From Pontibacter korlensis (GTDB lineage: Bacteria > Bacteroidota > Bacteroidia > Cytophagales > Hymenobacteraceae), in assembly GCF_000973725.1 (NCBI RefSeq), contig NZ_CP009621.1:2268501-2332500 (forward strand): a stretch of DNA of 64,000 nt, in the 5' to 3' direction. The notes below the pieces were generated by a model that was not told where the DNA came from, searched no databases, and worked only from the letters and a program-made list of their open reading frames with translations. The translations under genes were made by a program, and so were the position numbers. Within the stretch, counting starts at the first letter, position 1, and each line of letters begins with the position of its first letter. Below, one piece after another: positions 33,982 through 52,141 of the stretch.

Positions 33982-35059
33982 ATGACAACTGAGCAAGTAA
34001 AAGAGTTGAAGGCCAGAGTAGAGGCCTTGAGGAGGTATCTTTGACTACGATGCCAAGAAAGAACAGGTAAAAGAAACCGAAACACAAACCACTGCCCCAA
34101 ACTTCTGGGACGAGCCTAAGGAGGCTGAAAAGATCCTGAAGGAGATAAAGTCTGTAAAGGTATGGACTGATCATTACGAAGAGGTAGAGAAGGCAGTGTC
34201 TGATTTTGAGGTACTTTTCGACTTTTACAAAGAAGGAGATGTGTCTGAGGAGGACATTCAGCAGGAGTATAAAAAAGCAGAGGAGGCAGTAGAAGGGCTG
34301 GAGTTTAAACGCATGCTGAGTGGCGAAGAAGACCAGCTAAGCGCCATACTGGAAATAAACCCAGGCGCGGGTGGTACCGAAAGCCAGGATTGGGCCGAGA
34401 TACTGATGCGTATGTACATCATGTGGGCTGAGTCTCATAATTTTGGTGTGAAGCAAATCAGTTACCAGGCTGGTGATGGCGCAGGTATAAAATCGGCTAC
34501 ACTGGAGATAACCGGCGACTTTGCTTATGGCTACTTAAAGTCTGAGATTGGAGTGCATCGCCTGGTACGTATTTCTCCTTTCGATTCTGGTGGACGTCGC
34601 CATACGTCATTCGCGTCGGTTTTTGCCTATCCGGTGGTAGATGATACCATTAACATTGAAGTGAACATGAGCGATATTGAATGGGATACTTTCCGCTCAG
34701 GAGGTGCAGGCGGGCAGAACGTAAACAAAGTGGAGACGGCCGTTCGCCTGAAGCACAAGCCAACAGGTATCGTGATTGAATGCCAGATTGAGCGCTCTCA
34801 GCTGATGAACAAGGAACATGCTATTCGCATGCTTAAATCAAGGCTGTACCAAATCGAAATGGAAAAGCGAAATGCTGAGCGGGATCGTATTGAAAGCACT
34901 AAGAAACGAATCGACTTTGGTTCACAGATCCGTAACTATGTGCTGCACCCTTACAAGCTTATCAAGGACGTGCGTACGGGTGTAGAGCGATCTGACGTAC
35001 AGAATGTACTCGATGGAGATCTGGATGAATATATTAAGGCTTACCTAATGCAGGCTTAA
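33982..35059 (+). CDS. prfB: Peptide chain release factor 2, expressed by +1 programmed frameshift
   Basis: RF2 recognises UGA and UAA and triggers peptide release. The gene is split: 33982-34041 encodes [20 protein letters not shown], then TGA at 34042-34044. The shift site AGGAGG-TAT-CTT-TGA-C gives an internal Shine-Dalgarno sequence, the CUU slippery codon and a weak stop context. Reading resumes at 34043 and runs to 35059, for 358 aa in total. RF2 marks after the shift: the tripeptide SPF (residues about 198-200) for stop recognition, and the catalytic GGQ (243-245) in [11 protein letters not shown]. The shift is the usual autoregulation: low RF2 lets the ribosome slip. A GTG at 34196 is in frame but is not the start. 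Confidence 0.96.
34030..34045 (+). promoter_or_regulatory. RF2 programmed +1 frameshift site
   Basis: The site AGGAGGTATCTTTGAC contains the SD-like AGGAGG three bases before CTT, followed by the in-frame TGA and C. This is the canonical RF2 frameshift layout. Confidence 0.95.
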
Positions 35060-35080
35060 GAGCAGCATTTGATTTTATAG

Positions 35081-35108
35081 AAAGGCACCCGGTAAGGGTG
35101 CCTTTTTT
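35081..35108 (+). terminator. Terminator after prfB
   Basis: AAAGGCACCC (35081-35090), loop GGTAA, GGGTGCCTTT (35096-35105), then T. Confidence 0.92.
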
Positions 35109-35632
35109 GTTCGCTAACTACTAGGAGTATCTCCAAAAGCTGGTGGAGATAAATTCTCTTAAGGCTAAATCAAATCTTTTCGTCTACTCAAGTACTTCTA
35201 TGACTACTGTCATTGATAGTTTTTTTACGCTCAACTGAAGTAACAATATTAAGAAAAGCCCTATCCTCTGATATTTTTTATTTTCATCCTCAACAGTCTA
35301 TTTGTCAATCAGTTGTCTGCTGAAGATGAACTTATGATAGTCCATCTTCAGGTAAGTGATGAATCAAACTTTATCAAAAGCTTTACGCTTCATTTAGAAG
35401 CTACATGTTTGATTGTATGCTTTTGCCTTTGTGGATATAGTTCAAACCAAGTTTATTGGAATACTCAGTACAATTGTATTTATCAAAGTTGCTCTCTGCT
35501 TGTAAGGCAGTGAGTACTTGCTTTTTGATTTCAACTAATAACACAAGTTGTATTAGTCGGTTACTCACCACCGCTATTTGTTGTCACATCAATGTTATAG
35601 CTTATTTAATGATAAAATTATTTTAATAAAGC

Positions 35633-35666
35633 TATTTTGTTTTTAAATTCTTAAAATATATACTTG
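35633..35666 (+). promoter_or_regulatory. Candidate promoter of the first susC operon
   Basis: TATTTTG at 35633-35639, a 19-nt spacer, and TATACTTG at 35659-35666 (one mismatch to TAnnTTTG). It lies about 290 nt before susC1, matching the position of the promoter-like elements of susC2 and susC3. Confidence 0.4.
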
Positions 35667-35852
35667 TGTGTTGATAAAAATACAATAGTGGTAATTTTTG
35701 CTGGAAAAGAGAAAGAAGCATCTATAGAAACAGTATTTCTGTTGGTTGGCTAATGTATGCCATTGTTGTGTAGCCTTTTATCTACTAAAAAATTCTTTAC
35801 ATACTCCTGGTAGCTGACAAAGCCAAACTTGTGGTTTTGTTGGATATTTCAA

Positions 35853-35912
35853 AGTGCTACGATAGCGCTAATGGAATTGCTTTGCCTGAATATTACTATA
35901 AAACATGTCTAG
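35853..35912 (+). other. Leader hairpin plus short upstream reading frame (MELLCLNITIKHV) before susC1
   Basis: Stem AGTGCTA/TAGCGCT (35853-35869, one G-U, CGA loop) is followed at 35871 by ATG and a 13-codon frame ending in TAG (35910-35912), 78 nt before the susC start. The same arrangement precedes susC2 and susC3. Whether the peptide is translated is unknown. Confidence 0.4.
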
Positions 35913-35948
35913 CTAAAACCATTTGTTCACCTTAACCACAAATAGCAT

Positions 35949-38900
35949 ATGAGAAAATTGTTACTCATGAGTTTTGTTCTGACGCTAGCACTTCTACAGC
36001 AAGTGTATGCACAGAGTAAAACTGTGTCTGGTACAGTTACTGACCAGGCAACAAAGCAAGGGCTGCCCGGTGTGGCTGTTATTGTAAAAGGTACTGTCAT
36101 AGGTACCACCACTGGCCCGGATGGCTCTTATACCATAAGTGTGCCTGCTGGCTCAAATACACTTGTCTTTAAGTATATAGGTTACCTAGGTGCTGAAAGA
36201 GAGATTGGCAATGCATCCACTTTAAACGTGCTACTTACAACAGACGACAAAGTGCTGAATGAAGTAGTTGTAACAGGCTATGCTACGCAGAAGCGCGAGG
36301 AGTTTACAGGTGCTGCCTCAACTGTTACCGGAGAAGCCATCCAGGACCGGCCGGTGCAGAGTTTTGCTCAGGCTCTAACTGGTAAAGCAGCAGGTGTGAA
36401 TATTGTGCAGCCAAATGGCTTGATGAACAACCCACCTATTATACGTGTCCGAGGTGTTAATTCTATCTCACTAAGTTCTTTTCCGTTGATCGTGATAGAT
36501 GGTATACCTGTATCAACAAGCAATGTAGGGGACGGATATGCAGCTAACAATCCGCTCGCGGACATTAACCCAGCTGATATCGAGTCTATAGACATACTTA
36601 AAGATGCTGCATCAACCTCTATCTATGGTTCAAGAGCCGCAAATGGTGTTTTGATCATCACCACGAAGAAAGGAAAGCAGGGTAAAGCATCGGTATCTTA
36701 CAATGGCTGGTTTGGCGTGAACGAAGCTACAAGGCTGCCAGACATGTTGAATACTGAGCAGTACATGGAGATTAAAAATGAAGCGCGCCGCAACGCAGGC
36801 CAGGCAGAGGCCTTCTTTCCAAGCTATGACGCTAGCGGTAATCTTATAGATACCGATTGGCAGAAAGAGGTGTACCGTACAGCTCTTTCTCATAACCATG
36901 CGTTTTCTGTTTCAGGAGGTACAGATAAAACAACTTATTACTTCTCGATCGGAGCCTCAGAGCAGGAGGGCTTCTTAAAAACAAACGAGTTCGACAGAAA
37001 GTCAGCGCGCCTAAACCTAACCCATAAAGTAACTGACTGGTTTGCGATGAGAGGCAATGTTACCTACAGCAACTCTTTGAACTCAGGCATACAGAGTGGG
37101 TCTTTGCCAGGGTCAGGCTTTTCATCCTCTGGCTTGGGTCGACTAGCTGTGGTGCTCTACCCGAACGTTTCTCCACTTAACCCTGATGGAAGCTACAACA
37201 TAACTTCATCCAATACTATGGGTCCTGGTGCGAACCTGCTTACGCACAACTACATGAACCCTGTGCCTCTAATAGACCTAAACTCAAATACATCTGAGTC
37301 GAACAGAGTTATTGCAAACTTAGGTGCTGATTTCAATATCGTAAAGGGCCTGACTTTTAAAACAACCTACTCTTTAGACAGGAATAGAGTAGAGGATAAC
37401 ATCTTCTGGAATCCTCTACATGGCGATGGGTTCTATGCTAACGGCGAGGCCTGGAACTCCCACCAGAGAAGAAACAACTGGAACTGGATCAATACCCTGC
37501 AGTACCAGACAACTTTCGCAGATAAGCATAATCTTTCTGTGTTGGTCGGCTCAGATGCCCAAGAAACAACAAGAAACTACTGGTGGGCCGATCGTTGGGA
37601 TTTAGCTGACCCTGGCTTCAATCAGTTTCAGGCAGACTACCTCTCTAACGATGCTGGCGGAAGTATAGGTAAGAGAGTGTATGAGGCTTACCTAACGAGC
37701 CTGAGCTACAACTACGCGGGTAAATACTTTATTAGCGGTAACTTTAGAAGAGACGGTAACTCAGCTCTGTCGCCTACTATGCGTTGGGGTAACTTTGGTG
37801 GAGCATCGGTAGGATGGTTAGTTTCTGAGGAGGGCTTTTTCCAAAACTCGGTGGTTGCAGATGTTGTTTCCAACTTCCGTTTGAAAGCCAGTTGGGGCCG
37901 CGTAGGTAACGGTAACCTTTCCGACGACTATGGGTCTTATTCTTTGTACACAACAGGATTTTATGGCGAGGCTCCGAGTTTATACTTTAGCCAAGCTGGC
38001 AACACAGGCCTGGAGTGGGAAACAAGTAAGCAAACCAACATTGGTTTAGACTTAGGTTTTCTGAACAACAGAATAACTGTAGAGGCCAACTACTACAACA
38101 ACAACGTAGACGGCCTGATTCTCAACGCTCCTCAAGCTCCTTCTAAAGGTATACCGGGCAACTCCATTGCCATGAACATCGGCTCGATGTACAACAGAGG
38201 CTTTGAATTTGCTGCTTCTGCCACTCCAATAGACAGAGGCAAGTTTTCATGGACTACTAACTTCAACTTCACTACAAATAAAAATGAAGTAACCTCCCTT
38301 GTTGATGACGATACACCTATCATTGGCGTTACAAGTGGCTTAGAAACAACTAGTATAACTAGGGTAGGAGAGTCGGTAGGTAGCATCTATGTTGTTAAAA
38401 CAGGCGGTGTAAACCCAGAGACAGGCCAAAGAATCTTTATTAACTCAGCCGGTGAAAAAGTACAGTATTCTCACCCTTCTGTTTGGACCTACCTGGATGG
38501 TTCACCTGCTGCACCAGTTAATGGTTCGCATGCCTCGGCAGTTTACAATGCCTTGCCGACCTGGTATGGCGGTTTTACAAATAACTTCAAGTATGGCAAC
38601 TTTGACCTGAGCCTCTTATTCTCCTATTCAGGCGGTAACTATATCTATAACGGTACCAAAGCAGGCCTAAGGGACCAGCGTATCTGGAACAATCATACAG
38701 ACATGATGGATCGTTGGACTTCTGAAGGCCAGCAAACAGACATTCCGCGTGTAGTATACGGCGACAACATCTCTAATGGCTCTGCTTTTGCTATTGATGC
38801 CAACGTGGAGAAAGGAGATTTCCTGCGCTTGCAGAACACGGTGCTGGGCTATCGAATTCCGAAGCAGCTGTTTGGAAACTCTGGCATTAGCGGACTCAGA

Positions 38901-39059
38901 GTTTACGCACAGGTTGATAATGCCTTCCTCCTAACTAAGTATTCTGGTTCTGATCCTGAGATCTCTTCCAACGGACAATCTAATACAACTCCAGGTGTGG
39001 AGAGAAACTCCGTTCCGCAAGGAAGAATGTACACTTTTGGTTTAAACCTTAACTTCTAA
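35949..39059 (+). CDS. SusC/RagA family TonB-linked outer membrane protein (1)
   Basis: The protein is 1036 aa. It is an outer-membrane TonB-dependent channel that takes up oligosaccharides or peptides together with its SusD lipoprotein. Order: signal peptide (MRKLLLMSFVLTLALLQQVYA), carboxypeptidase-D-like domain (about 22-100, VSGTVTDQATKQGLPGVAVI), TonB box and plug (NEVVVTGYATQKR, then SIDILKDAASTSIYGSRAANG), and a beta-barrel ending in a terminal strand with aromatic C-terminus (YTFGLNLNF). The partner SusD follows after 17 nt. No nearby hydrolase gene indicates the substrate. Confidence 0.96.
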   Translation: MRKLLLMSFVLTLALLQQVYAQSKTVSGTVTDQATKQGLPGVAVIVKGTVIGTTTGPDGSYTISVPAGSNTLVFKYIGYLGAEREIGNASTLNVLLTTDDKVLNEVVVTGYATQKREEFTGAASTVTGEAIQDRPVQSFAQALTGKAAGVNIVQPNGLMNNPPIIRVRGVNSISLSSFPLIVIDGIPVSTSNVGDGYAANNPLADINPADIESIDILKDAASTSIYGSRAANGVLIITTKKGKQGKASVSYNGWFGVNEATRLPDMLNTEQYMEIKNEARRNAGQAEAFFPSYDASGNLIDTDWQKEVYRTALSHNHAFSVSGGTDKTTYYFSIGASEQEGFLKTNEFDRKSARLNLTHKVTDWFAMRGNVTYSNSLNSGIQSGSLPGSGFSSSGLGRLAVVLYPNVSPLNPDGSYNITSSNTMGPGANLLTHNYMNPVPLIDLNSNTSESNRVIANLGADFNIVKGLTFKTTYSLDRNRVEDNIFWNPLHGDGFYANGEAWNSHQRRNNWNWINTLQYQTTFADKHNLSVLVGSDAQETTRNYWWADRWDLADPGFNQFQADYLSNDAGGSIGKRVYEAYLTSLSYNYAGKYFISGNFRRDGNSALSPTMRWGNFGGASVGWLVSEEGFFQNSVVADVVSNFRLKASWGRVGNGNLSDDYGSYSLYTTGFYGEAPSLYFSQAGNTGLEWETSKQTNIGLDLGFLNNRITVEANYYNNNVDGLILNAPQAPSKGIPGNSIAMNIGSMYNRGFEFAASATPIDRGKFSWTTNFNFTTNKNEVTSLVDDDTPIIGVTSGLETTSITRVGESVGSIYVVKTGGVNPETGQRIFINSAGEKVQYSHPSVWTYLDGSPAAPVNGSHASAVYNALPTWYGGFTNNFKYGNFDLSLLFSYSGGNYIYNGTKAGLRDQRIWNNHTDMMDRWTSEGQQTDIPRVVYGDNISNGSAFAIDANVEKGDFLRLQNTVLGYRIPKQLFGNSGISGLRVYAQVDNAFLLTKYSGSDPEISSNGQSNTTPGVERNSVPQGRMYTFGLNLNF

Positions 39060-39076
39060 TCAAAAATTTTCTACCG

Positions 39077-40522
39077 ATGAAACTGATTGCTATAAAGAAC
39101 AAGAGATATATCCTAAGGCTTGCTTTGATAGCTGTGCCTTTGCTGCCAGTACTATCATCCTGTGAAGATGACTTTTTAGAAGCGGTGCCTGAACTGGAGA
39201 TTTCCGACGTTAATGCCTTCGATACGCCTGAACGTGTGCTAGCCCAGGTAAACGGGCTCTACAGTGGCTTGAAACATGGCCGCTTTCTGGGCGGTCGCTA
39301 CCAAATCTACAACGACATCCGTGCCGAAGAATTTATCAACCGTACTGGCAATAACGTAACAGGAACCAGCGTCTGGAATGCGACGGCAGGAGCTGATGAA
39401 ACATACATCACAGATATCTGGTCCAGAGGATACCAAGCCATAAACCGGGTAAACGTTTTTCTGAAAGGCTTAGAGGATAATGCTGCCAAGGTTGGTGCTG
39501 AGGATGCGCAAAGCTATGGTGCTGAAGCGAAGTTTATCAGAGCCATGTCATATTTATCCTTAGTACAGGTTTTTGCAAAACCTTATACAAGCGACAATGG
39601 AGCTTCTCCGGGGCTTCCGCTTCGCTTGCAGGCAGAAACAACCGGTGCAAACAACTCTTTGGAAAGAAGCTCTGTGGCTGAAGTCTATGCACAGATACTT
39701 TCTGACCTGAATGAGGCTGAGGCAGGCTTGCCTGAAAGTTATGGAGATCCTGTGCTGAATACAACGCGTGCAACGAAGAGCGCTGCTATTGCTCTTAAAA
39801 CAAGAGTATACCTGATAATGGGAAGGTATCAGGATGTTGTCACAGAAGGAAACAAGCTTGTGCCAAATGCTGCTCCATTTGCTTCTGCTTTAGCTCTGCA
39901 GCATAAACTGGAGGAGGATGTAATAGCGGTGTTCTCTAACTACACAAATTCTGAGGCAATCTTCTCAGTGCCTTTCACGGCAACAGATGCTCCCGGTACT
40001 CAGAACCAGTTGGGTTATTACTTTAACAGCGGCAATACAGAGTACTACCTTAACCAGTCGGCGCCTGGGATTTTTGCTAACCCGCAGTTTGAGGCAGATG
40101 ATGCTCGTAGAACAGAGCTGACTGCTACAATAAATGGCCAGCAGTATGTGACCAAGTTTAGTGGTGTAAACCCATACATCGATTGGGTTCCATTAATCCG
40201 GTATGCCGAGGTTCTGTTGAACCTGGCAGAGGCTGAAGCAGAGGTAGGCAGCGAGGAACGTGCTGTTGCTCTGTTGGAGGCTGTGCACCAGCGCTCCGAT
40301 GCATCATGGCAGTATACAGGCACTGGCCAGGAAGATCTAGTTGCCGCTATTTTGACAGAAAGAAGAATAGAGCTCATTACGGAAGGCTTTAGAGCAAATG
40401 ACATTCTGCGCAGAAGCTTACCGCTCTACTCCGCAGGAGCAGGAGTCTCTATCGCGCCTTCAGATGAACGTTATGTCTTTTCTATTCCAACCTCGGAACT
40501 TAACACAAATAGTGGGCTTTAA
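39077..40522 (+). CDS. SusD/RagB family nutrient-binding outer membrane lipoprotein (1)
   Basis: The protein is 481 aa, the surface lipoprotein that caps SusC. A type II signal peptide with lipobox LSSC (about residue 29) follows a hydrophobic stretch. SusD features: an N-terminal DDFLEAVPE segment, TPR-like helices, and the C-terminal region with IRYAEVLLNLAEAEAEVG and ILTERRIELITEGFRANDILR. ATG at 39077. A 29-bp palindromic terminator follows. Confidence 0.94.
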   Translation: MKLIAIKNKRYILRLALIAVPLLPVLSSCEDDFLEAVPELEISDVNAFDTPERVLAQVNGLYSGLKHGRFLGGRYQIYNDIRAEEFINRTGNNVTGTSVWNATAGADETYITDIWSRGYQAINRVNVFLKGLEDNAAKVGAEDAQSYGAEAKFIRAMSYLSLVQVFAKPYTSDNGASPGLPLRLQAETTGANNSLERSSVAEVYAQILSDLNEAEAGLPESYGDPVLNTTRATKSAAIALKTRVYLIMGRYQDVVTEGNKLVPNAAPFASALALQHKLEEDVIAVFSNYTNSEAIFSVPFTATDAPGTQNQLGYYFNSGNTEYYLNQSAPGIFANPQFEADDARRTELTATINGQQYVTKFSGVNPYIDWVPLIRYAEVLLNLAEAEAEVGSEERAVALLEAVHQRSDASWQYTGTGQEDLVAAILTERRIELITEGFRANDILRRSLPLYSAGAGVSIAPSDERYVFSIPTSELNTNSGL

Positions 40523-40570
40523 TTCTTAAGTGACATACTCTGCTTTACCAGAGTGAGTATATACCATTCC

Positions 40571-40630
40571 TGAGCTTTATAAAAGGAACCGCCCAATGCA
40601 CGCATTGGGCGGTTCCTTTTATAAAGCTCA
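40571..40630 (+). terminator. 29-bp perfect palindrome after the first susD
   Basis: Arms 40571-40599 and 40602-40630 are perfectly complementary; the AC between them means the innermost pairs must open to form a loop. The stem contains GGAACCGCCCAATGC. T4 at 40617-40620 lies within the right arm, so this could act in either direction. Confidence 0.88.
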
Positions 40631-41055
40631 TTGTATTTGTGCAAACCTGAAATAGTAGGAGCGACTAGTATGCTAGCATTTCGCTGCTAAAAAAAGTATA
40701 AGCCGGAGGTACAAAAAAGGAATCAAAGTGTACCCTATTTAGGAACAATAATGTGATATATAAGAGTAGATATAGGTACCCTATTGAATAACCTTTTCTT
40801 GTTTCTAAAGCCCTTTTTCCTGATGGTGGAGGTAACTTCTAAAAGGTTGCAAGAATTTTAAAAAATAGTCGATAATATTTCTAAATTAATGTCTGAACAT
40901 TGTCCTGTTGAAAGAATCATAATGTTAGCCTGTTATTACTAAAAATGTGTGTTTAGAGCCTGTAAATGGGGTTTTATAGTTAGTTATGAGTTTAAAGAGC
41001 ATTGGTAATGTTCTTGTTTATAATGTTTTAACATTAAAGCAGATTATTTTTTAGG

Positions 41056-41088
41056 TATTGCTTTTCAAATTTTAACTCCATATTATTG
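41056..41088 (+). promoter_or_regulatory. Promoter-like element of the second susC operon
   Basis: TATTG (41056-41060), 20-nt spacer, TATTATTG (41081-41088), preceded by TAACTCCA. The third operon has TATTG, the same 20-nt spacer and the same TATTATTG octamer. The shared sequence and spacing support a promoter, although it departs from TAnnTTTG. Confidence 0.5.
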
Positions 41089-41287
41089 ACATCGAATAAG
41101 TGCCCTTCCGGACATGAAGCTGTACAGGCCAACAGCAGTGGAGAGGAGGCACTGTCGCTCTAGCGAAGAGAGGGTGTGACTGTTGTAGAGCACAACCTGC
41201 CAGCGAAATTCAATCCAATTTATCAGTGCATGTCTACGAAGTGGGGTAGCTAAAGCAAACCATGGATAGGTGCATAAAATTTAAAAA

Positions 41288-41342
41288 CACATGAGATATG
41301 TGCATGGCGGAGCTATGTCCAAATCTGAAGCAAAAATTCTAA
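41288..41342 (+). other. Leader hairpin plus short upstream reading frame (MAELCPNLKQKF) before susC2
   Basis: Hairpin CACAT-GAGAT-ATGTG (41288-41302), one base, then ATG at 41304 and 12 codons to TAA (41340-41342). The ATG lies 75 nt before the susC start. The first bases, ATGGCGGAGCT, are identical to the element before susC3. Confidence 0.45.
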
Positions 41343-41378
41343 TAACAAACCTTTCAATCACCTTAATTCAAACAACAA

Positions 41379-44300
41379 ATGAGAAAACATTTATTAATGA
41401 GTTTTGTGATGGTGCTAACACTGCTCCAGCAGGTGTATGCCCAAAGCAGAACCGTGACTGGATCGGTTACCGACCAAGGCACATCGCAAGGACTGCCGGG
41501 GGTGGCAGTAATTGTGAAAGGCACTACTGTTGGTACCACTACAGGTGCTGATGGTTCCTATTCCATAAATGTACCTGAGGGTGGAAACACTTTAGTGTTC
41601 CGATTCATCGGATATCAGACTCTTGAGAAGGCTATTGGCAACTCAAGCACCGTAAATGCCGCTATGGCCACTGACCAAAAGCTTTTGGACGAGGTAGTAG
41701 TAGTGGGTTATGGTACACAGCAGAAGAAAGACGTAACAAGCTCAATCGCTTCTGTGAAAGGTGAGACATTGGCAAACCTTGCCACTCCATCTTTTGATCA
41801 GCAGCTGGCTGGACGTGCTTCTGGTGTGCAGATTACACAGCCTTCTGGCATTTTGGGTGCTCCTCCTAAGATTAACATCCGTGGTGTTAACTCTATCTCT
41901 TCTAGCACTCAGCCACTTATCGTTATTGATGGTGTGCCTGCTGCTTCTTCTGGTAACGTTGGTGGTTTTACGCCTGCTAACGCACTTGCCGACATTAACC
42001 CGAACGACATCGAGTCTTTCGAGATCCTGAAGGATGGTGCTGCAACAGCGGTTTACGGTTCTCGTGCTGCTAATGGTGTAATCCTTATCACTACTAAGAA
42101 AGGTAAGTCTGGACAGGCTAAGTTCTCTTACGATGGATGGGCTGGTACTGCAAAGGCTATCGAGCTGCATGACCTGCTGAACGCTCAGCAGTTTGTTGAT
42201 ATCACAAACGAGAAGTATGAAAACATTGGCCAGACTTCTCCAGCTCAACTGGGCGAGTGGGACACTGACTGGAACGATGAGGTATTCCGTACTGCTTTCC
42301 AGCACAGCCACGCTTTCTCTGCTAGCGGTGGTACCGACAAAACTACCTACTACTTCTCTTTAGGCTACTCTAACCAAGAGGGTATTGGCCGTGCCAACAG
42401 CCTGGAGCGTTACTCTGTACGTACTAACCTGACTACTAAAGTTACTAAGTTCCTGGACTTCGGTTTACAGGCTGGTTTAACTAACCAGATCAACGAAGGT
42501 CCACTAACAGGCTCTAACAGCTTGTCAGGTAACATCTTCAGTGTTATCCGTATGCACCCTAACGTGCCTGTATTTGACCCAACTCATCCAACTGGCTATA
42601 ACATCGATGTAGTTAACCCTAGAGCGCTTGGCCGTGGTCCAAACACTGCTACTATTGCAAACGGTATTCCAAACATCCGTTTCGTACTGGACAACAACCT
42701 GCGTAAATCAACTTCATACCGTGGTCTTGGTAACGTGTACTTAGACTTCAAACTAGTTGACAACCTGCGTTTCAAGACATTGCTTGGTGCTGACTTAACC
42801 CTGGTAGAAGACTTCCTATACAACGACCCACGTCATGGTGACGGTCAGGGTTCTAATGGTGTAGTTTCTCAGGCTTACTCTCCAATCAAAGCTTGGAACT
42901 GGCAAAACATCCTGAGCTATAACAAGTCATTTAACGATGTGCATAACGTAGATGCGACTTTAGTGCAGGAATATAACAAATACAGAAGCAGCTTCTTCCA
43001 GGCTCAGGGTACTGGCTTGTCAGATCGTTTCTTCAACGAGAACCTTGTAAGCGGTGCATTTGCTAACCAGTTTGCTTTTGGTGGTATAGGTGAAAATGGC
43101 CTTTCTTCTTACTTGGGTCGTTTAAACTACAACTACGCCAGCAAGTACTACTTCGGTGTTTCGATGCGTGCTGACGGTCTTTCTAAACTTTCTCCAGATA
43201 ACAAGTGGGGTTATTTCCCAGGTGTGTCTGCTGCATGGAGAATTTCTGAAGAAGAATTCTTCAAGAACTCTGCTGCTCTTAGCTTCATCTCTGACCTGAG
43301 ATTGCGTGGTAGCTATGCTGAGGTGGGTAACATCAACATCCCAGGTGGTAACTATCCATACCTTGGTTCATTCAGCGCTGCACAGTACGGTTCTATGAAC
43401 GGTATCTCATTCAGCAACACTGGTAACCCAGACCTGAAGTGGGAAGCACAGAAAATTACTGACGTTGGTTTGGACTTAGGTTTATTTGATGGCCGTCTGA
43501 ATCTGGAGCTTGCTTACTGGACTAAGGACAACTCGGATATCGTTCTTGCTGCTCCAACTCCTCCATCACTGGGTGTGCCAGGTAACTCTATCATCAGAAA
43601 CATTGGCCGTGTAGTTAACGACGGTATTGAAGTCTCTGTTTCTGGTAACATTATTGATAAGTCTAACTTTACCTGGAGCTCTAACTTCAACTTCTCTACA
43701 CAGCGTAACGAAGTGAAGGAGCTTGTTGATGGTAATGATATTGTATACGACTACACAATCCACCGCGAAGGTGAGTCTATTAACTCTATCTACGGCTATC
43801 AGTACGAAGGTGTAAACCAGACTAATGGTAACCCAATCTATCGTAAGGCTGATGGTTCTCTGGTACAGGGCAACATTGGTCTGGCTGGTGGTTCAGCTGG
43901 TGTATACTACGGTTACGATCCTGCTAATCCTTCTGTTCTGGGTGCTCGCTCTTCACTTTCTGCTGCTGACAAAGTTATACTTGGTACTACACTACCTAAG
44001 TGGTTTGGTGGTTTCGACAACAACTTTAAGTATGGCAACTTTGACGCGAACATCTTCGTGCGCTTCTCTGGTGGTAACAAGATCATGAACCGAACTCGCC
44101 AAGACCTTTTGACAATGGCATTTGAGAACAACGGTACTGAGATCCTGAACAGATGGCAGAGCGCTGAAAACCCAGGTGATGGTCAGACTCCTGCTCTTGC
44201 TGCAGGTGCAGGTTACAGCAACTTCATCAACACAAACGGCGAAGCCTCTTCTCGTTTCGTTGAGAGCGGCGACTTCCTGAAGGTGAGCAACCTGGCTATC

Positions 44301-44510
44301 GGTTATACAATTCCTAAATCTATTACAGAGCGTGCCAGCATCGATCGTCTGAGAGTTTATGCTCAGCTGCAGAATGCATTCGTGTTCACGAAGTATACTG
44401 GCCTTGACCCTGAGACTTATACTAACCTGAACAACAACAACCTGGGTGTTGACTGGAATGGCCAGCCACAGCAGCGTGTGTTCACTGTTGGTTTAAACCT
44501 TGGTTTCTAA
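41379..44510 (+). CDS. SusC/RagA family TonB-linked outer membrane protein (2)
   Basis: The protein is 1043 aa, with the same domain order as the first copy: signal peptide (MRKHLLMSFVMVLTLLQQVYA), carboxypeptidase-D-like domain (VTDQGTSQGLPGVAVIVKG), plug (DEVVVVGYGTQQKKDV, then SFEILKDGAATAVYGSRAANG) and barrel ending FTVGLNLGF. Codons are strongly biased to GGT, GCT, AAC, CTG and CGT, more so than in the first copy, which suggests very high expression. The partner SusD is 18 nt downstream. Confidence 0.96.
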   Translation: MRKHLLMSFVMVLTLLQQVYAQSRTVTGSVTDQGTSQGLPGVAVIVKGTTVGTTTGADGSYSINVPEGGNTLVFRFIGYQTLEKAIGNSSTVNAAMATDQKLLDEVVVVGYGTQQKKDVTSSIASVKGETLANLATPSFDQQLAGRASGVQITQPSGILGAPPKINIRGVNSISSSTQPLIVIDGVPAASSGNVGGFTPANALADINPNDIESFEILKDGAATAVYGSRAANGVILITTKKGKSGQAKFSYDGWAGTAKAIELHDLLNAQQFVDITNEKYENIGQTSPAQLGEWDTDWNDEVFRTAFQHSHAFSASGGTDKTTYYFSLGYSNQEGIGRANSLERYSVRTNLTTKVTKFLDFGLQAGLTNQINEGPLTGSNSLSGNIFSVIRMHPNVPVFDPTHPTGYNIDVVNPRALGRGPNTATIANGIPNIRFVLDNNLRKSTSYRGLGNVYLDFKLVDNLRFKTLLGADLTLVEDFLYNDPRHGDGQGSNGVVSQAYSPIKAWNWQNILSYNKSFNDVHNVDATLVQEYNKYRSSFFQAQGTGLSDRFFNENLVSGAFANQFAFGGIGENGLSSYLGRLNYNYASKYYFGVSMRADGLSKLSPDNKWGYFPGVSAAWRISEEEFFKNSAALSFISDLRLRGSYAEVGNINIPGGNYPYLGSFSAAQYGSMNGISFSNTGNPDLKWEAQKITDVGLDLGLFDGRLNLELAYWTKDNSDIVLAAPTPPSLGVPGNSIIRNIGRVVNDGIEVSVSGNIIDKSNFTWSSNFNFSTQRNEVKELVDGNDIVYDYTIHREGESINSIYGYQYEGVNQTNGNPIYRKADGSLVQGNIGLAGGSAGVYYGYDPANPSVLGARSSLSAADKVILGTTLPKWFGGFDNNFKYGNFDANIFVRFSGGNKIMNRTRQDLLTMAFENNGTEILNRWQSAENPGDGQTPALAAGAGYSNFINTNGEASSRFVESGDFLKVSNLAIGYTIPKSITERASIDRLRVYAQLQNAFVFTKYTGLDPETYTNLNNNNLGVDWNGQPQQRVFTVGLNLGF

Positions 44511-44528
44511 TTACTTAATTTTCCGACA

Positions 44529-46121
44529 ATGAAAAATAGATCATTCATAAAGAATAGATTGAAGTTAGCCTTACTTGCCCCAGCGGTTTGCTTTTCGCTG
44601 ATGCTGACTTCTTGCGACAAAGAGGTGATGGAGCTTGAGCCTTATGATCGCCTAACAGAAGAAAGTGCCTTTACTACGCCTGAGCGAATAGAGCTTACTG
44701 TAGCAGGTGTTTATGATGCTGCTCAGAGTGGTTTCTATGCCGGTGGTGCAGTACGTGGCTATCCGTTTGGTGCGGCACACATAGAGCAGGGCGATAACCG
44801 CGGCGAGGATATGCTGAACCTGGAGGCGTTCTACGCCATCACGTATGAGGCTACTTACAATGCTGCTTCTGCCAACAACGTTTACCACTTCGAAACACTT
44901 TATGCTGTTGTAAACAAGGCAAATATAGTGATTGAAGGTGTAGAGAAAGCTGTTGCTGATGGGTTGATCACTGCTGAGGTAGGTAATGCTTACATTGCAG
45001 AGGCCCGATTCCTGCGTGCCCTTTCTCACCACGAACTGCTGGTACACTTTGCACGACCTTATAACCATACTGCGGATGCTTCGCACCTAGGTGTGCCTTA
45101 TAGAACCTTGCCGGTTAACACTCCTGCTCGGGTAGAGGAAGCTCGTCAGCAAGGCAGAGACACTGTAAAGGAAGGCTATGCTAAAGTACTGGAGGATCTA
45201 AACTATGCAGAGCAGAATCTGCCTGAAACACGTGCCAAGCAAATCTCTAGAGCTACCAAAGGTGCTGCTATTGCCCTTAAGACTAGAGTTAAGTTACACA
45301 TGCGCGATTGGGCTGGTGTGATTGAAGAAGGCAATAAGCTTATTTCTGGAACAGAGGAGTTTACAAGCCCTATTGGTGGCTATGAGCTAACTGCTTCGCC
45401 AGAGGAGCCATTTGCTAACAACGGAGCCAACTCAGAGTCTATCTTCTCATTCGAGAACTCTGCGAATGACAACGCTAGTGTAAACGGGTCTCTTGGTCAA
45501 ATGTATAATGCTAACACCGGTGGCCGTGCGCTAGTAGCTATTAGCCCAATCATCTGGAACGCTGCCTTCTGGCCAGAAGAAGATGAGCGTCGTGATATAA
45601 CTGTAAGCACTGCCAGAGCCATCTATACTAACAAGTACAGAGATGCTGCAACGCAGTCTGACTGGTCTCCGATTGTTCGTTATGCTGAAGTACTGCTGAA
45701 CGTGGCAGAAGCTGAGGCTAGGCTGAACCCGCTGAGTGTTAGAGCCCTTGCGCTTCTTAACGCTGTACGTGGTAGATCAACAGATCAGCTTTACTCTCTG
45801 ACTACTTTGCTAAGCCAGGACGACCTGATTCAAGCGATTATCAACGAGCGCAGAATTGAGTTCTTGGCAGAAGGCTTGCGTTGGAAAGATATCCACCGTC
45901 TAGCTAAGGAAGGTGAGTTCGGTCCAGCTGGTATACCTGCAAAAGTTGCCTCTGCTAACCTGAAGCGTGATGACTACCAGGCTGCAAGTGGAACAGTTAG
46001 AGCTGATGCGATCAAAGTTCCGGCGATTCCTTATGAAGATTTCCGCTTCATCTGGCCTATCCCAATTTCTGAAATCAATGCTAACCCAGTGTTAGCCGCT
46101 CAGCAAAACCCTGGTTACTAA
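44529..46121 (+). CDS. SusD/RagB family nutrient-binding outer membrane lipoprotein (2)
   Basis: The protein is 530 aa. The lipobox LTSC follows a hydrophobic stretch (LALLAPAVCFSLML); then DKEVMELEPYDRLTEESAF, TPR-like helices, and the C-terminal SPIVRYAEVLLNVAEAEARL, INERRIEFLAEGLRWKDIHRL and FIWPIPISEINAN, all typical of SusD. It is paired with SusC (2). Confidence 0.95.
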   Translation: MKNRSFIKNRLKLALLAPAVCFSLMLTSCDKEVMELEPYDRLTEESAFTTPERIELTVAGVYDAAQSGFYAGGAVRGYPFGAAHIEQGDNRGEDMLNLEAFYAITYEATYNAASANNVYHFETLYAVVNKANIVIEGVEKAVADGLITAEVGNAYIAEARFLRALSHHELLVHFARPYNHTADASHLGVPYRTLPVNTPARVEEARQQGRDTVKEGYAKVLEDLNYAEQNLPETRAKQISRATKGAAIALKTRVKLHMRDWAGVIEEGNKLISGTEEFTSPIGGYELTASPEEPFANNGANSESIFSFENSANDNASVNGSLGQMYNANTGGRALVAISPIIWNAAFWPEEDERRDITVSTARAIYTNKYRDAATQSDWSPIVRYAEVLLNVAEAEARLNPLSVRALALLNAVRGRSTDQLYSLTTLLSQDDLIQAIINERRIEFLAEGLRWKDIHRLAKEGEFGPAGIPAKVASANLKRDDYQAASGTVRADAIKVPAIPYEDFRFIWPIPISEINANPVLAAQQNPGY

Positions 46122-46147
46122 TTCGGTTAAGTAGTGTATTAATTGCT

Positions 46148-46185
46148 AATCCCCGTCAATCGTCCAGATTGGCGGGGATTTTTTT
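46148..46185 (+). terminator. Terminator after the second susD
   Basis: A 14-bp stem with one G-U pair (AATCCCCGTCAATC with GATTGGCGGGGATT), loop GTCCA, then T5. Confidence 0.88.
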
Positions 46186-46439
46186 GTGCCATTTTTTCAG
46201 TAGTCTCTCAAGAAGTGTTATGGTTTTGTAAATTTTTTTTTTCTCTTATGTTAAAAAAAAGTCTGTTTGAATAAAAACATGTCACACTACGTGTCCTTTT
46301 CAAAGTAATAACATCGAACATGCTATATATCAATTATTAACATTTATGTAGATGTGACTGAGAATAGAAGTTTTCGTTTATAAGGTGTTAAAAAAGGTCC
46401 TGGTTGTTGTTGCAACATAGAGTGTTAAGGCTTTTACCC

Positions 46440-46472
46440 TATTGTATTTAATGTTGTAACCTCCTATTATTG
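46440..46472 (+). promoter_or_regulatory. Promoter-like element of the third susC operon
   Basis: TATTG (46440-46444), 20-nt spacer, TATTATTG (46465-46472), preceded by TAACCTCC. It matches the element before susC2 in sequence and spacing. Confidence 0.5.
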
Positions 46473-46670
46473 GTGAAAATTATCATGTGCGGTCAAACCG
46501 GTGGCCATTCAGGCCTACGGATACAAGTCTTAGCAATTAGAGGCAACTGAAAATCAGTACTTCTGAGGTTCCTGAGCAGGAAGACTTGAAATCAAACTTA
46601 AACTTGATAACAGGGCATACAGGTAGCTCTGATTTAGACTATCTAAGCTTATAAAGCTCTAAATCAAAAA

Positions 46671-46767
46671 CTCATAGAAATATGAGATGGCGGAGCTTTG
46701 TCTATTAGTGAAATCCAATTTTTACCAATACAATCTATTATCTAACTATTTTATTCATCCAACTTTT
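46671..46767 (+). other. Leader hairpin plus upstream in-frame start (MAELCLLVKSNF...) before susC3
   Basis: Hairpin CTCAT-AGAAAT-ATGAG (46671-46686) is followed directly by ATG at 46687. In this copy the short frame has no stop and runs in frame into susC, 81 nt before the signal-peptide ATG at 46768. It begins MAELC like the frame before susC2. Confidence 0.45.
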
Positions 46768-49700
46768 ATGAGGAGATTATTACTCATGAGTTTTGCTTTC
46801 GTGTTGATGCTTGCCCAGCAAGTGTATGCACAGAGTAAAACTGTGTCGGGTACGGTTACGGACCAAGGCACATCACAAGGGCTGCCTGGTGTGGCAGTTA
46901 TTGTGAAAGGAAGCACAGTGGGTACCACTACAGGGCTTGACGGAAGTTATACTATTAGTGTTCCTGCTAATGGTAGCACCCTGATTTTCCGATTTATAGG
47001 TTACAAAACTGTAGAGCGTGAGATCGGGAATTCGTCCAATATAAATGTTGCCTTAGGCGTGGACGACAAACAGCTTGAAGAGGTTGTTGTGGTAGCCTAT
47101 GGTACAGCAGACAAGGGCTCCTTTACAGGTTCTGCAGCGCAAATTTCGAGTGAGAAAATTGCACAGCGTCCTGTAACTAACATCACAAACGCTATTGCTG
47201 GTCAGGCTGCCGGTGTGCAAACTAACTCAGGTAGCGGTCAGCCAGGCGCAGGCCCGGATATTCGTATCCGTGGTATCGGCTCTATCAACTCTTCTAATGA
47301 CCCTCTTTATGTGGTAGACGGTGTACCTTACTCTGGTAGCATTGCAAACCTGAACGTAGATGATATTGAAAGTATCTCTATCCTTAAAGATGCCTCTTCT
47401 TCAGCGTTGTATGGTTCTCGTGCTGCTAATGGTGTAGTAATGGTTACAACCAAAAAAGGAAAGAGTGGACGCAACCAGATCAATGTAAAAATCTCTCAAG
47501 GTGTTACCAACAGAGGTATCAAAGAGTATGACCGTGTAAATGCTTACGAATACTACCCTCTGATCTGGGAAGCCCGCAGAAACTCACTTGTGGCTGCTGG
47601 TAAGCATACATTGGAGCAAGCAAACCAGGCGGCAACCAACGATGTGAAAGGTATTCTAGGTTACAACCCTTTCAATGTAGCTGATGATGCAATTGTTGGC
47701 ACAGATGGTAAAATCAACCCTAACGCACAGCTACTTTATGGTGATGACCTGGACTGGTTTGAACCTATGGAGCGCAACGGATCTCGTAGCGATTATGGCT
47801 TAAACTTTAGCGGTGGTAACGAGAAGAGCGACTACTTTGTGTCAGTTGGTTACCTGAACGAGAAGGGCTACATCATTAAGTCAGACTACGAGCGTTTTAC
47901 AGGCCGTGTAAATATTAATACACAGGCTACAAGCTGGTTTAAGACTGGTTTGAACCTTTCTGGTACTATCACAGAGTCAAATCAGGCAAATACAGGCAGC
48001 AGCAGCAGCTATGTTAACCCGTTCAACTTTGCACGTAGCATGGGACCAATCTACCCAGTATATGCTCATGACCCTGTAACAGGTGCTTACATCCTGGACC
48101 AGAACGGCAATAGAATATATGACTATGGCAATATGTCTGAATATGGCCTGCCAAGCCGTGGTAGCAATGCAAGTGTGGGTCGCCATATCGTAGCTGAGAC
48201 TAAATGGAACGACAATCTGTACAACAGAAACGTACTTAGCGGTAGAACCTACGGTGAAATTACTTTCCTGAAAGACTTTAAATTCACTACAAACCTAAGC
48301 GTAGACATCTCTAACTATCTTGCCGCAGAGTATGACAACAACCAGGTAGGTGATGGTGCTCCAGCAGGTAGAGCAAATCGTACAAGCTCTACAACTACAA
48401 GCTACAACGTCAACCAGTTGTTGAACTATGCTAAAACCTTCAACGACAGACATTTTGTAGAGGTGTTGTTAGGTCATGAGAATTACAACTATGAGTATAA
48501 GTACCTGTATGGTATGCGCCAGGGCTTAATTGTAGAAGGTAACACAGAGCTTGGCAACTTTACTACTACCAACAGCCTTAACTCACGCACTGATGTTTAC
48601 AAAACAGAAGGTTACTTCTCTCGCTTAAACTATACTTTTGACGACAAGTATACCCTGTCTGGCTCTTTCCGTCGCGATGGTTCTTCAAGATTCTATCAGG
48701 ATGTACGTTGGGGTAACTTTTGGTCAGTGGGTGCTTCTTGGCGCCTTGACAGAGAAACTTTCATCACTATGCCTGAGTGGGTTGATATGCTGAAGTTGAG
48801 AGGTTCTTACGGACAAGTTGGTAACGACGCTCTATTGACTTCAGGTGGTGCTAACAACTACTATGGCTGGCAAGCACTTTATGGCTTAGGCTATAACAAC
48901 GCTGCTGAGCCAGGATTCCTTCAGGAAAGCCTTGCAAGCCAGGACCTGGTATGGGAGTCTAACAACAGCTTAGACCTTGGTATCGAGTTCGATATTTTTG
49001 GAAGACTGAATGGTGGCATAGAATACTTCAACAGAGAGTCTGAGAACCTGTTGTTCCAGGTGCCACTGCCACTTTCAAGCGGTGTACTTACCAGATGGGA
49101 GAACGTTGGTACTATGGCTAACAAAGGTGTGGAAGTGCAGCTTTCTGCTGATGCTGTTAGAGCCAAAGACTTTACCTGGAATGTGAGCCTGAACCTTTCT
49201 TCGTATAAAAACGAAGTGAAGAAGCTACCAGAAGGCCAGGATGAAATCATCTCTGGAACTAAGAAGCTGATGGCAGGTCGTTCTATTTATGACTACTGGC
49301 TGCGTGACTGGTACGGTGTAGACCCTACTTCTGGTAATGGTGTTTTCATCGCCGATAACGTTGAAGCAGCAGACGTGTATGAGTTGGATGGTCAAAAAGT
49401 AACAACACTGGCTAACAATGCTAAATATCACTATGCTGGTTCAGCTATTCCTGATTTCGCTGGTGGTGTAACTAACACCTTCACTTACAAAAACCTGTCG
49501 CTTTCAGTATTGCTGACTTACCAGGTAGGTGGTAAAGTATACGACGCTAACTATGCATCTCTGATGAATGCTGGTACGCAGGGTGGTGCACTGCACAAGG
49601 ATATCTTGAACCGTTGGCAGCAGGAAGGTGATGTAACAGATGTTCCTCGTATGGACTTGACAGCTGCTACACAGTATAATGCTGCGTCAGATCGTTGGTT

Positions 49701-49932
49701 GATCGATGCTTCTTACCTGAACATCAGATCAGTGAACCTGAACTACGTGCTGCCTTCAAACCTGACTTCTAAGGTATTCCTGAAAAACGCTAGTGTGTTT
49801 GCTTCAGGTGAGAACCTTGGCTTGTTCTCTAAGCGTGATGGCATGAACGTTAATCAGTCTTACACAGGTGTTACATCTAACTCATACTCACCTGCCCGTG
49901 TTTACACAGTTGGTTTGAACGTTACCCTTTAA
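46768..49932 (+). CDS. SusC/RagA family TonB-linked outer membrane protein (3)
   Basis: The protein is 1054 aa from the ATG at 46768, which begins the signal peptide MRRLLLMSFAFVLMLAQQVYA. An in-frame ATG at 46687 would add 27 residues before the signal peptide. Then come the carboxypeptidase-D-like domain, plug (EEVVVVAYGTADKGSFTG, then SISILKDASSSALYGSRAANG) and barrel ending VYTVGLNVTL. The first about 95 residues closely match copies 1 and 2 while the barrel differs. The partner SusD starts 9 nt downstream. Confidence 0.96.
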   Translation: MRRLLLMSFAFVLMLAQQVYAQSKTVSGTVTDQGTSQGLPGVAVIVKGSTVGTTTGLDGSYTISVPANGSTLIFRFIGYKTVEREIGNSSNINVALGVDDKQLEEVVVVAYGTADKGSFTGSAAQISSEKIAQRPVTNITNAIAGQAAGVQTNSGSGQPGAGPDIRIRGIGSINSSNDPLYVVDGVPYSGSIANLNVDDIESISILKDASSSALYGSRAANGVVMVTTKKGKSGRNQINVKISQGVTNRGIKEYDRVNAYEYYPLIWEARRNSLVAAGKHTLEQANQAATNDVKGILGYNPFNVADDAIVGTDGKINPNAQLLYGDDLDWFEPMERNGSRSDYGLNFSGGNEKSDYFVSVGYLNEKGYIIKSDYERFTGRVNINTQATSWFKTGLNLSGTITESNQANTGSSSSYVNPFNFARSMGPIYPVYAHDPVTGAYILDQNGNRIYDYGNMSEYGLPSRGSNASVGRHIVAETKWNDNLYNRNVLSGRTYGEITFLKDFKFTTNLSVDISNYLAAEYDNNQVGDGAPAGRANRTSSTTTSYNVNQLLNYAKTFNDRHFVEVLLGHENYNYEYKYLYGMRQGLIVEGNTELGNFTTTNSLNSRTDVYKTEGYFSRLNYTFDDKYTLSGSFRRDGSSRFYQDVRWGNFWSVGASWRLDRETFITMPEWVDMLKLRGSYGQVGNDALLTSGGANNYYGWQALYGLGYNNAAEPGFLQESLASQDLVWESNNSLDLGIEFDIFGRLNGGIEYFNRESENLLFQVPLPLSSGVLTRWENVGTMANKGVEVQLSADAVRAKDFTWNVSLNLSSYKNEVKKLPEGQDEIISGTKKLMAGRSIYDYWLRDWYGVDPTSGNGVFIADNVEAADVYELDGQKVTTLANNAKYHYAGSAIPDFAGGVTNTFTYKNLSLSVLLTYQVGGKVYDANYASLMNAGTQGGALHKDILNRWQQEGDVTDVPRMDLTAATQYNAASDRWLIDASYLNIRSVNLNYVLPSNLTSKVFLKNASVFASGENLGLFSKRDGMNVNQSYTGVTSNSYSPARVYTVGLNVTL

Positions 49933-49941
49933 TTTTTGAAA

Positions 49942-51456
49942 ATGAAAAAAGTATTATATAGTTCGCTTGCAGCATGTATGCTGGTTTTCTCCTCCTGCGA
50001 AAAGGATTACCTGGAGACACAACCAACTGACGCTGTTTCTGAACAATCTGTATTTACAACTACTGCAAATGCCTGGGCTGCGCTGAATGGTATTCACAGA
50101 GCGATGTTCATACAGTATGATAACCAAGACCAGGCAGGCCATGGCTCAGTATTGATCAACATGGAGATGCTGGGCGAAGATGTTGTGATGACTGCAGCTG
50201 GTAATGGCTGGTTTAACAGTACTTACAAATGGTTAACGCACCGCAATGCCAATGCGGGTACAGTTCGTTTTGCCTATAGATTCTACTATAAGCTTATCGC
50301 CAATGCTAACATGATCATCAACAACATTGACAAAGTTGATGGTCCTGATGCGGACAAGAAAGAGATTAAAGGGCAAGCCTTGGCTTATAGAGCTTGGGCC
50401 CACCACCAACTGGTACAGCTTTTTGCTGAGCGTTATGATGCCTCTAAGGGTACAAACAATCAGTTAGGTGTTCCTGTACTGACTACTAACACTACTGAAG
50501 GTCAGCCGCGTGCTTCTGTTGAAGCAGTATATACGCAAATCAACGCAGACCTTGATGAGGCGATTTCATTACTACCGCAAGGCCGTAATGCCAAGTCGCA
50601 CTTCAATATTGATGTAGCTAAAGGCCTGAAAGCTCGCGTAGCTTTAACGATGGGAGATTGGGCAACTGCTGCTCAGTATGCGAATGAGGCAAGACAGGCT
50701 TATGCACTTATGAGCCAGGAGGATTACCTGGCTGGCTTCAGCAATGTAGAGAACAAAGAGTGGATGTGGGGCAGCGATCAGATTGCTGACCAGACGACAT
50801 ACTTCTATTCCTTCTTTGCTTATATGTCTGTTAACTTCAGCTCAACAAACATTCGCACTAATCCTAAAGCTATCAACAACAAGCTTTATGCTGAGATTGC
50901 TGATACAGACGTGCGTAAGCAGCTGTGGGATCCACAGCCAACCGCTGTGAAGGATGCTGAAGGTAAGACTACTGGCTACGATGTAAATGGATATACCATT
51001 CCTTCTACCTTCTCGCCTAAGCCTTACATGAACAGGAAGTTCCAGGCTGATGGCAACGCCAGCAGTATTGGTGACGTGCCTTACATGAGAGCAGCTGAAA
51101 TGTATCTGATAGAAGCTGAGGCTCTGGCTCGTTTGGGTAGAGATGGTGATGCTGCTGCTGTACTGGCTGAGTTAGTACAGGCTCGTGACGAGGAGTATAC
51201 AGTTGACGTTACAGGCCAAGACCTGATCAACGAAGTTCTGGTACAGCGTCGTATCGAGTTGTGGGGTGAAGGCTTCCGTTTCTTCGACCTGAAGCGTACC
51301 AACAGTGCACTTAACAGATTAGAAACTAACCACAACGCAACTCTAGTAGACAACCTATTTGAGGTGCCGGCAGGTGATAAGCGTTGGCAGTGGGTAATTC
51401 CGCAGGATGAGCTGAACGCCAACAGAAACCCTGGTATGGTGCAGAATCCACTGTAG
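49942..51456 (+). CDS. SusD/RagB family nutrient-binding outer membrane lipoprotein (3)
   Basis: The protein is 504 aa from the ATG at 49942 (a TTG six bases earlier is possible). Signal peptide MKKVLYSSLAACMLVF with lipobox FSSC, then EKDYLETQPTDAVSEQSVF. SusD landmarks at the C-terminus: MRAAEMYLIEAEALARLG, LVQRRIELWGEGFRFFDLKR and WQWVIPQDELNANRNPGM. It is paired with SusC (3) and followed by a terminator. Confidence 0.95.
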   Translation: MKKVLYSSLAACMLVFSSCEKDYLETQPTDAVSEQSVFTTTANAWAALNGIHRAMFIQYDNQDQAGHGSVLINMEMLGEDVVMTAAGNGWFNSTYKWLTHRNANAGTVRFAYRFYYKLIANANMIINNIDKVDGPDADKKEIKGQALAYRAWAHHQLVQLFAERYDASKGTNNQLGVPVLTTNTTEGQPRASVEAVYTQINADLDEAISLLPQGRNAKSHFNIDVAKGLKARVALTMGDWATAAQYANEARQAYALMSQEDYLAGFSNVENKEWMWGSDQIADQTTYFYSFFAYMSVNFSSTNIRTNPKAINNKLYAEIADTDVRKQLWDPQPTAVKDAEGKTTGYDVNGYTIPSTFSPKPYMNRKFQADGNASSIGDVPYMRAAEMYLIEAEALARLGRDGDAAAVLAELVQARDEEYTVDVTGQDLINEVLVQRRIELWGEGFRFFDLKRTNSALNRLETNHNATLVDNLFEVPAGDKRWQWVIPQDELNANRNPGMVQNPL

Positions 51457-51481
51457 TAAATAGATTTTAGTTGTATAATTA

Positions 51482-51514
51482 AGGCCCGCAGTCGTTTGAC
51501 TGGCGGGCTTTTCT
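51482..51514 (+). terminator. Terminator after the third susD
   Basis: GCCCGCAGTC (51484-51493), loop GTTT, GACT-G-GCGGGC (51498-51508, one bulged G), then a T-rich tail. Confidence 0.8.
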
Positions 51515-51544
51515 TTTTATACTTGCGCTGATACATTATTACTT

Positions 51545-52141
51545 ATGCTTTTACCAAACCACAGTGGCTTTACCCTGGAGGCGGGCGTAGACGAAGTAGG
51601 CAGGGGCTGCTTGGCTGGCCCTGTAGTGGCTGCCGCTGTTATACTTCCGCCAGATTACCAGCACCCGCTCTTTAACGATTCTAAAAAGCTGACCAAGAAG
51701 CTACGGGAACAGTTACGTGAGGAGATTAAGCGAGACGCTGTCGCCTGGGCTATAGGAGAGGCCTCGCCAGAAGAGATTGATAAGATCAACATCCTGAAAG
51801 CCTCTTTCCTGGCTATGCATCGGGCTTTAGATAAACTGCAGCAACGGCCGGAATACTTGCTGGTGGACGGAAATAGATTTAACCCTTACCAGAAGTTGCC
51901 TTATAATTGCATTGTGAAGGGAGATGGAAAATATCTCTCTATAGCGGCAGCTTCTATTCTGGCTAAAACCTATCGGGATGACCTCATGTGCAGCTTAGCA
52001 GCAAAGTACCCTCACTATGGCTGGGACAAAAATGCTGGCTACCCCACAAAAGTACATCGTGCAGGCATTGCCATCCATGGAGCCACAGCGCATCATCGTA
52101 GGTCTTTTGCCTTACTACCAAAGCAACTGGAGCTGCTCTAA
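51545..52141 (+). CDS. rnhB: Ribonuclease HII
   Basis: Removes ribonucleotides and RNA primers from RNA-DNA hybrids in the cytosol. The protein is 198 aa. Catalytic acids are visible in GVDEVGRG (Asp and Glu, residues 16-17) and [29 protein letters not shown] is the conserved central motif region, followed by [15 protein letters not shown] at 51545. It is followed by a 27-bp palindromic terminator. Confidence 0.97.

Follow-up and report, generated by a model that had tools for sequence, protein, structure and literature searches.

A candidate cis-acting leader element, consisting of a covarying hairpin and a conserved box, upstream of susC genes in Pontibacter

The window, i.e., the whole stretch of 64,000 nucleotides that was analyzed, covers positions 2268501-2332500 of a 5.46 Mb genome whose nearest relatives are Pontibacter species. 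Three tandem susC-susD pairs are located between prfB, encoding a peptide-release factor, and rnhB, encoding RNase HII (Table 1). The pairs (window 34196-52141) have no glycoside hydrolase or regulator alongside, and annotation of the surrounding genes revealed no regulator gene within the locus. The genome as a whole contains 75 matches to the TonB-receptor plug. SusC-type receptors rank with the most abundant and costliest proteins of the Bacteroidota, whose genes are generally devoid of Shine-Dalgarno sites. To our knowledge, little is known about the setting of SusC expression at the RNA level outside Bacteroides. The idea that the SusCD pairs are subunits of the BAM complex was dropped, because BamG is FadL-like.

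Table 1. Positions in the window of the susCD genes and of the leader features upstream of them.
Feature	Position	Strand	Basis or content
Element copy 1 (divergent sub-type)	35850..35889	+	hairpin 35853-35869 + box GGAATTGCTTTGCC (35873-35886)
susC copy 1, TonB-dependent receptor, 1036 aa	35949..39059	+	Pfam Plug, CarbopepD_reg_2
susD copy 1	39077..40522	+	Pfam SusD-like_3, SusD_RagB
Second hairpin upstream in copy 2 leader	41236..41270	+	fold + arm-swap test
Element copy 2	41284..41322	+	hairpin 41288-41302 + box GGCGGAGCTATGTC (41306-41319)
susC copy 2, 1043 aa	41379..44510	+	Plug match in genome search; PDB SusC homologues
susD copy 2	44529..46121	+	Pfam SusD_RagB
Element copy 3	46667..46705	+	hairpin 46671-46686 + box GGCGGAGCTTTGTC (46689-46702)
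susC copy 3, 1054 aa	46768..49932	+	Pfam Plug; listed ORF from 46687 takes in leader
susD copy 3 (ORF as listed)	49936..51456	+	Pfam SusD-like_3, SusD_RagB

The hairpins read AGTGCT-acgat-AGCGCT in copy 1, CACAT-gagat-ATGTG in copy 2, and CTCATA-gaaa-TATGAG in copy 3. A preliminary description of this DNA had reported them together with a short reading frame starting directly behind each of them, and a check of the sequence agreed with it in all positions: the hairpins are located as given in Table 1, and an ATG follows after 1, 1, and 0 nt in copies 1, 2, and 3, at 78, 75, and 81 nt, respectively, before the susC start. The frames end after 13 codons in copy 1 and 12 codons in copy 2, and the frame of copy 3 continues in phase into susC. 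In addition, the stems of copies 2 and 3 differ by the A-T/T-A exchange that had been reported.

A conserved layout emerged from the sequences upstream of 60 genes related to the three susC genes and taken from Pontibacter genomes. It consists of a hairpin of mostly 4-8 bp, a linker of 1-5 nt, a box GG-N8-TGYC, and an AU-rich, unstructured leader. Two sub-types can be discerned. The first, with copies 2 and 3, reads [hairpin]-TGGCRKAGCYWTGYC, and the second, with copy 1, reads [hairpin]-GG-N6-YWTTGYC or a close variant thereof. The motif GG-N8-TGYC was found between positions -120 and -50 in 23 of the 63 related susC leaders, where 1.6 would be expected, and it is rare farther upstream. When leaders were selected by the box only, the adjacent hairpin in these 23 leaders had a mean folding energy of -4.16 kcal/mol vs. 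-0.71 kcal/mol in shuffled sequences (p=7e-7). Chimeras, in which the 5' arm of one leader was combined with the 3' arm of another, averaged -1.6 kcal/mol, and the native mean was reached in 0 of 20000 permutations, a result that did not change after removal of near-identical stems. Since the chimeras fail to reach the native stability, it is complementarity rather than sequence that has been kept. Thus, the combination of hairpin and box in susC leaders occurs more than by chance.

A covariance model was built from nine leaders (R1) and then extended to 24 (R2) and 35 copies (R3). Copy 3 is a member of R1. Copy 2, which is outside the R1 training set, was retrieved by this model in the genome with E=2.8e-4. 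Copy 1 was matched by R2, which had not been trained on it, with E=0.014 in 51 kb, and by R3 in the genome (G000:C1:2304350-2304389). In the R3 alignment, GG-N8-TG is present in 31 of the 35 sequences, and all five stem pairs have changed on both sides. The paired cells amount to 92% vs. 60% in shuffles, and the covariation score is 0.825 vs. 0.264 in shuffles and 0.06 after a shift of the partner by one column; as this alignment was fitted to the structure, the box-only shuffle and arm-swap tests are the less biased ones. Compensatory changes in the stem are beyond chance, as in a covarying structured RNA, and this covariation supports the RNA-structure reading proposed earlier. A further mini-hairpin within the box (GGCR/UGYC) was proposed by RNAalifold, but is not claimed here, because the changes in support of it are all one-sided. 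A covariance-model search of Rfam yielded no matching family at the elements. Elsewhere in the window (8538-8656), an Rfam match to the animal snoRNA SNORA14 exceeded the gathering score; in a bacterium, this is surely a false match.

Strong matches in 50 Pontibacter genomes are located mainly before genes of the susC clade of the window. According to the preliminary description, absence of the element from other susC genes would speak against it. The outcome is mixed: in this genome, the element is missing from most of the other susC and TonB-receptor genes, but related susC genes and some surface-protein genes in relatives do have it, with strong covariation. It is not a generic susC hairpin: position-wise folding showed nothing comparable in 53 other TonB-receptor leaders of the same genome, 35 susC leaders of other genera, or 24 other genes of the window, although this profile is coarse and shows a modest signal, too, for the 63 related leaders, a mixed set of which only a part has the element. 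In eight Pontibacter genomes, R2 and R3 found copies on which they had not been trained before genes of a second family of proteins, the N-termini of which resemble MKHxYN. The distance to the start codon is about equal to that in the susC copies, and two of these proteins match Ig_7 (CHU_C-associated) domains. In Pontibacter genome G032, two copies of the element are found in tandem, 90 nt apart, before a single surface-protein gene (L280, 1501-1629; also L370). Two other genera have untrained copies before TonB receptors (L365, L342). More tentatively, copies may be present before genes of other Cytophagales, i.e., a gene for an ABC-transporter ATPase in two different families (L379, L385) and a TolC-type gene (L383), all much closer to the start codon; a copy farther from the start codon was found at a pyruvate:ferredoxin oxidoreductase gene (L384). 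The best of the distant matches has E=5.8e-6 for one genome, and given a search of 390 genomes, none of the weaker ones is significant by itself. That some of them are genuine is suggested by their repeated occurrence before orthologous ABC genes.

Several look-alikes were set aside. The element is not a general terminator motif, as 143 terminators of the genome lack such a box. Matches at the termini of a mobile element with a transposase (L149, L273, L276, L279, L290, L344, L377) were read as minus-strand terminators, and matches that fall inside the coding sequence of signal peptides in other genera (L335-L337, L340) were not retained. The mobile element has a conserved end of ~290 nt (L149, L273, L276, L279, L290), which finishes with GGCATAGCTKCGCCA and a strong terminator, and several copies are present in genome G040. 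The 15-mer GGCATAGCTKCGCCA is complementary to the susC box. The frames of the mobile element are transposase-like, with a Zn-ribbon and a tyrosine-recombinase-like piece, and look IS91-like by eye. The same 15-mer as in the susC leaders, TGGCGTAGCTTTGCC, is located ~35 nt before a gene starting with MKILIIQTAFLGDVVLATAL (glycosyltransferase-like by eye) at L145 (G000:C1:2204973) and L175. It is conserved in two Pontibacter genomes, has no hairpin, and may there be no more than a promoter -7 box (TAGCTTTGC).

With respect to the strand on which the element acts, the evidence supports, but does not prove, the sense RNA. The non-Watson-Crick pairs in the R3 alignment are 17 G-U vs. one A-C on the sense strand, and stems requiring a wobble comprise eight G-U cases vs. 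one A-C in a leader set partly picked by eye; in both counts, alignments or arms were selected with sense pairing in mind. By itself, the difference in folding energy between sense and antisense gave p=0.09. The copy 2 family contains a second hairpin farther upstream, which is weak in the genome studied here and strong and covarying in orthologues (native -11.7 vs. swapped -8.0 kcal/mol; 0 of 20000 permutations). This second covarying hairpin suggests that the whole stretch is transcribed. A scan with a -33/-7 promoter model, trained on 388 upstream regions within 864 kb of the genome (L295-L334 and the window), found no clear housekeeping promoter directly upstream of copies 2 and 3. We infer that the element is transcribed together with susC.

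Pairing that is kept while the letters change points to an RNA control element before these susC genes, of the cis-regulatory leader kind and without description in Rfam or in the literature searched. That literature reports antisense RNAs (DonS), small RNAs (FopS), and the protein RbpB acting at susC 5' regions in Bacteroides, and no such cis element. It is also possible that a protein binds the RNA or the transcribing complex at this site. As for its working, the elemental pause consensus of RNA polymerase comprises G-10, Y-1, and G+1 (PMC12288461). The near-invariant columns GG, T, and G of the box have the spacing of this consensus and supply all three of its letters, although the consensus is short and was defined in other bacteria; the additional conserved letters YC, at +2 and +3, fall outside it. 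Since the box fits the pause consensus and a hairpin lies upstream of it, a hairpin-assisted, promoter-proximal pause is proposed as the likeliest working. The hairpin would form in the nascent RNA while RNA polymerase reaches the box, the letters of which (G at -11 and -10, a pyrimidine at -1, and G at +1) would act as a consensus pause, so that the polymerase would halt ~60 nt before the start codon. During the pause, a ribosome or an elongation factor, such as NusA or a NusG-type protein, could have time to join before transcription of the long susCD operon. The reading of the element as a cis-acting part of the susC mRNA leader that pauses the polymerase before susCD is thus a tentative one, to which we give somewhat less than an even chance; both the pausing at the box and the identity of the binder are what we infer from the sequence.

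The main rival to such a pause is a binding site that acts post-transcriptionally. A protein, e.g., one like RbpB, or a small RNA acting in trans would recognize the box by the hairpin in the sense leader RNA and set susC translation or mRNA stability. Both readings share the covarying hairpin and the box, and they differ only in the proposed mode of action. The shuffles, arm swaps, and covariation therefore serve the rival equally well, and in Bacteroides, FopS small RNAs and RbpB do act on susC 5' regions (PMC11697453). Against it, sites complementary to the box occur at chance level in the own genome, which led us to reject a trans-acting small RNA complementary to the box as a candidate, and FopS pairs at the start codon, whereas the box is located ~60 nt upstream of it. 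Post-transcriptional binding is possible, if on balance not probable.

The element could also act as DNA, i.e., as a promoter containing a dyad. In this reading, TTTG, TATG, or ATTG at the end of the box would be the -7 element, transcription would start immediately behind it, and the dyad, lying in the spacer, would be the operator of a regulator or a structured DNA site. The Pontibacter promoter consensus derived de novo comprises TAnYTTTGC with a TTG ~20 nt upstream of it, and is mostly found 13-100 nt upstream of the start codon. The resemblance of copies 1 and 3 to this -7 box fits a promoter, as do the start of the unstructured, AU-rich leader directly 3' of the box and the scores of copy 3 (6.8), copy 1 (7.1), and L246 (11.3), which exceed the 99.5% null level. 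However, the score is -3.1 for copy 2 and is below zero for many others as well, because in the element A or C stands at positions that are at least 95% invariant in -7 boxes. No -33 TTG is found at the expected place, and copy 2 and most of the second sub-type lack the housekeeping pattern (TAnnTTTG with TTG ~20 nt upstream). Moreover, the letters of the dyad vary even among orthologues, and there is the G-U bias. A promoter is therefore an unlikely explanation.

A very unlikely one is a feature of the minus strand, where the hairpin plus a U-run would terminate a DonS-like antisense RNA covering the susC start. An A-run, i.e., a U-run on the minus strand, indeed precedes the hairpin in copies 2 and 3 and in most leaders of that sub-type, and antisense RNAs of polysaccharide utilization loci (PULs) are known in Bacteroides (PMC10994844, PMC7366714). 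The sub-type of copy 1, however, has no U-run on the minus strand, and the G-U bias favors the sense strand. Minus-strand -7-like sites at +63/+68 in susC scored above a synonymous-codon null, and an antisense promoter within susC appeared significant at first, but selection for it is not backed by codon usage: the codon that switches the site (Gln CAA/CAG) is used half and half, like in the rest of the gene. In codons 20-25 of susC, both in the window copies and in their relatives, the serine after the signal-peptide site is always encoded by AGY and the arginine always by AGA among the listed leaders, unlike in the rest of the gene. These codons form a minus-strand -7-like box, which may reflect ancestry only.

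The proposal that a translated leader peptide or upstream reading frame (MELLC/MAELC) controls susC is hardly credible and, as a conserved function, already refuted. An ATG is present in all three window copies, but it is gone in nine of the 15 leaders whose box is of the copy 2/3 type, where it is replaced by CTG (L207, L228), GTG (L246, L255, L247, L248), TTG (L208, L221), or TTA (L226), and an in-frame TAG is found at codon 3 in L205 and L249 (ATGGCGTAG) and in L221 (TTGGCGTAG). Neither the start codon nor the codons are kept in related leaders, no peptide is common to them, and no sense-strand terminator, i.e., a hairpin with a U-tract, is found between frame and gene: in the aligned copies the GG box follows the hairpin, and the leader beyond is unstructured. 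As the short reading frame is not conserved, it cannot be a shared function, and its presence in the window copies is incidental on this sequence evidence.

A defined, covarying leader element that is common to SusC operons and large surface-protein genes would offer a directly testable handle on RNA-level control, and several known systems invite comparison. The DonS family, which comprises PUL-associated cis-antisense RNAs of Bacteroides (PMC10994844, PMC7366714), is likewise a small RNA-level feature at the susC 5' end, and one sub-type of the element shares the antisense U-run. The element differs in that the second sub-type has no U-run and no antisense promoter is supported; in addition, a conserved box and a sense wobble bias are not part of the DonS description consulted. 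The FopS/RbpB system of Bacteroides thetaiotaomicron resembles the element in post-transcriptional control at susC 5' regions, but FopS binds its targets by pairing at their translation start, ~60 nt downstream of the element, for which no complementary small RNA was found.

The likeness to consensus pauses and to hairpin-stabilized pauses in leaders concerns the spacing GG, 8 nt, TG, the upstream hairpin, and the position in the leader. The distance from the end of the hairpin to the proposed end of the pause is 12-15 nt in the alignment, as compared with 11-12 (10-13) nt reported for hairpin-stabilized pauses, and the conserved YC is extra. The ops element, too, begins with GGCG. As the RfaH site, ops matches the pause consensus (PMC7819879), but its inner letters (GGTAGCG) are absent from the susC box. 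Recognition by a NusG-type protein would be by analogy and the inner letters are not shared, so the susC-leader element is not claimed to be an ops element. Like the element, the specialized NusG proteins UpxY, from Bacteroides (PMC7819879), and LoaP act through signals in 5' leaders; no protein of this type is encoded by the ten genes annotated around the element. UpxY and LoaP target capsule or antibiotic operons, whereas the element precedes genes for receptors and surface proteins. By analogy, the element might be an ops-like leader signal of the Cytophagales, a doubtful extension in which a covarying nascent-RNA hairpin and a GG-N8-TGYC pause box would mark operons for outer-membrane receptors and very large surface proteins for the recruitment of an elongation factor or a ribosome.
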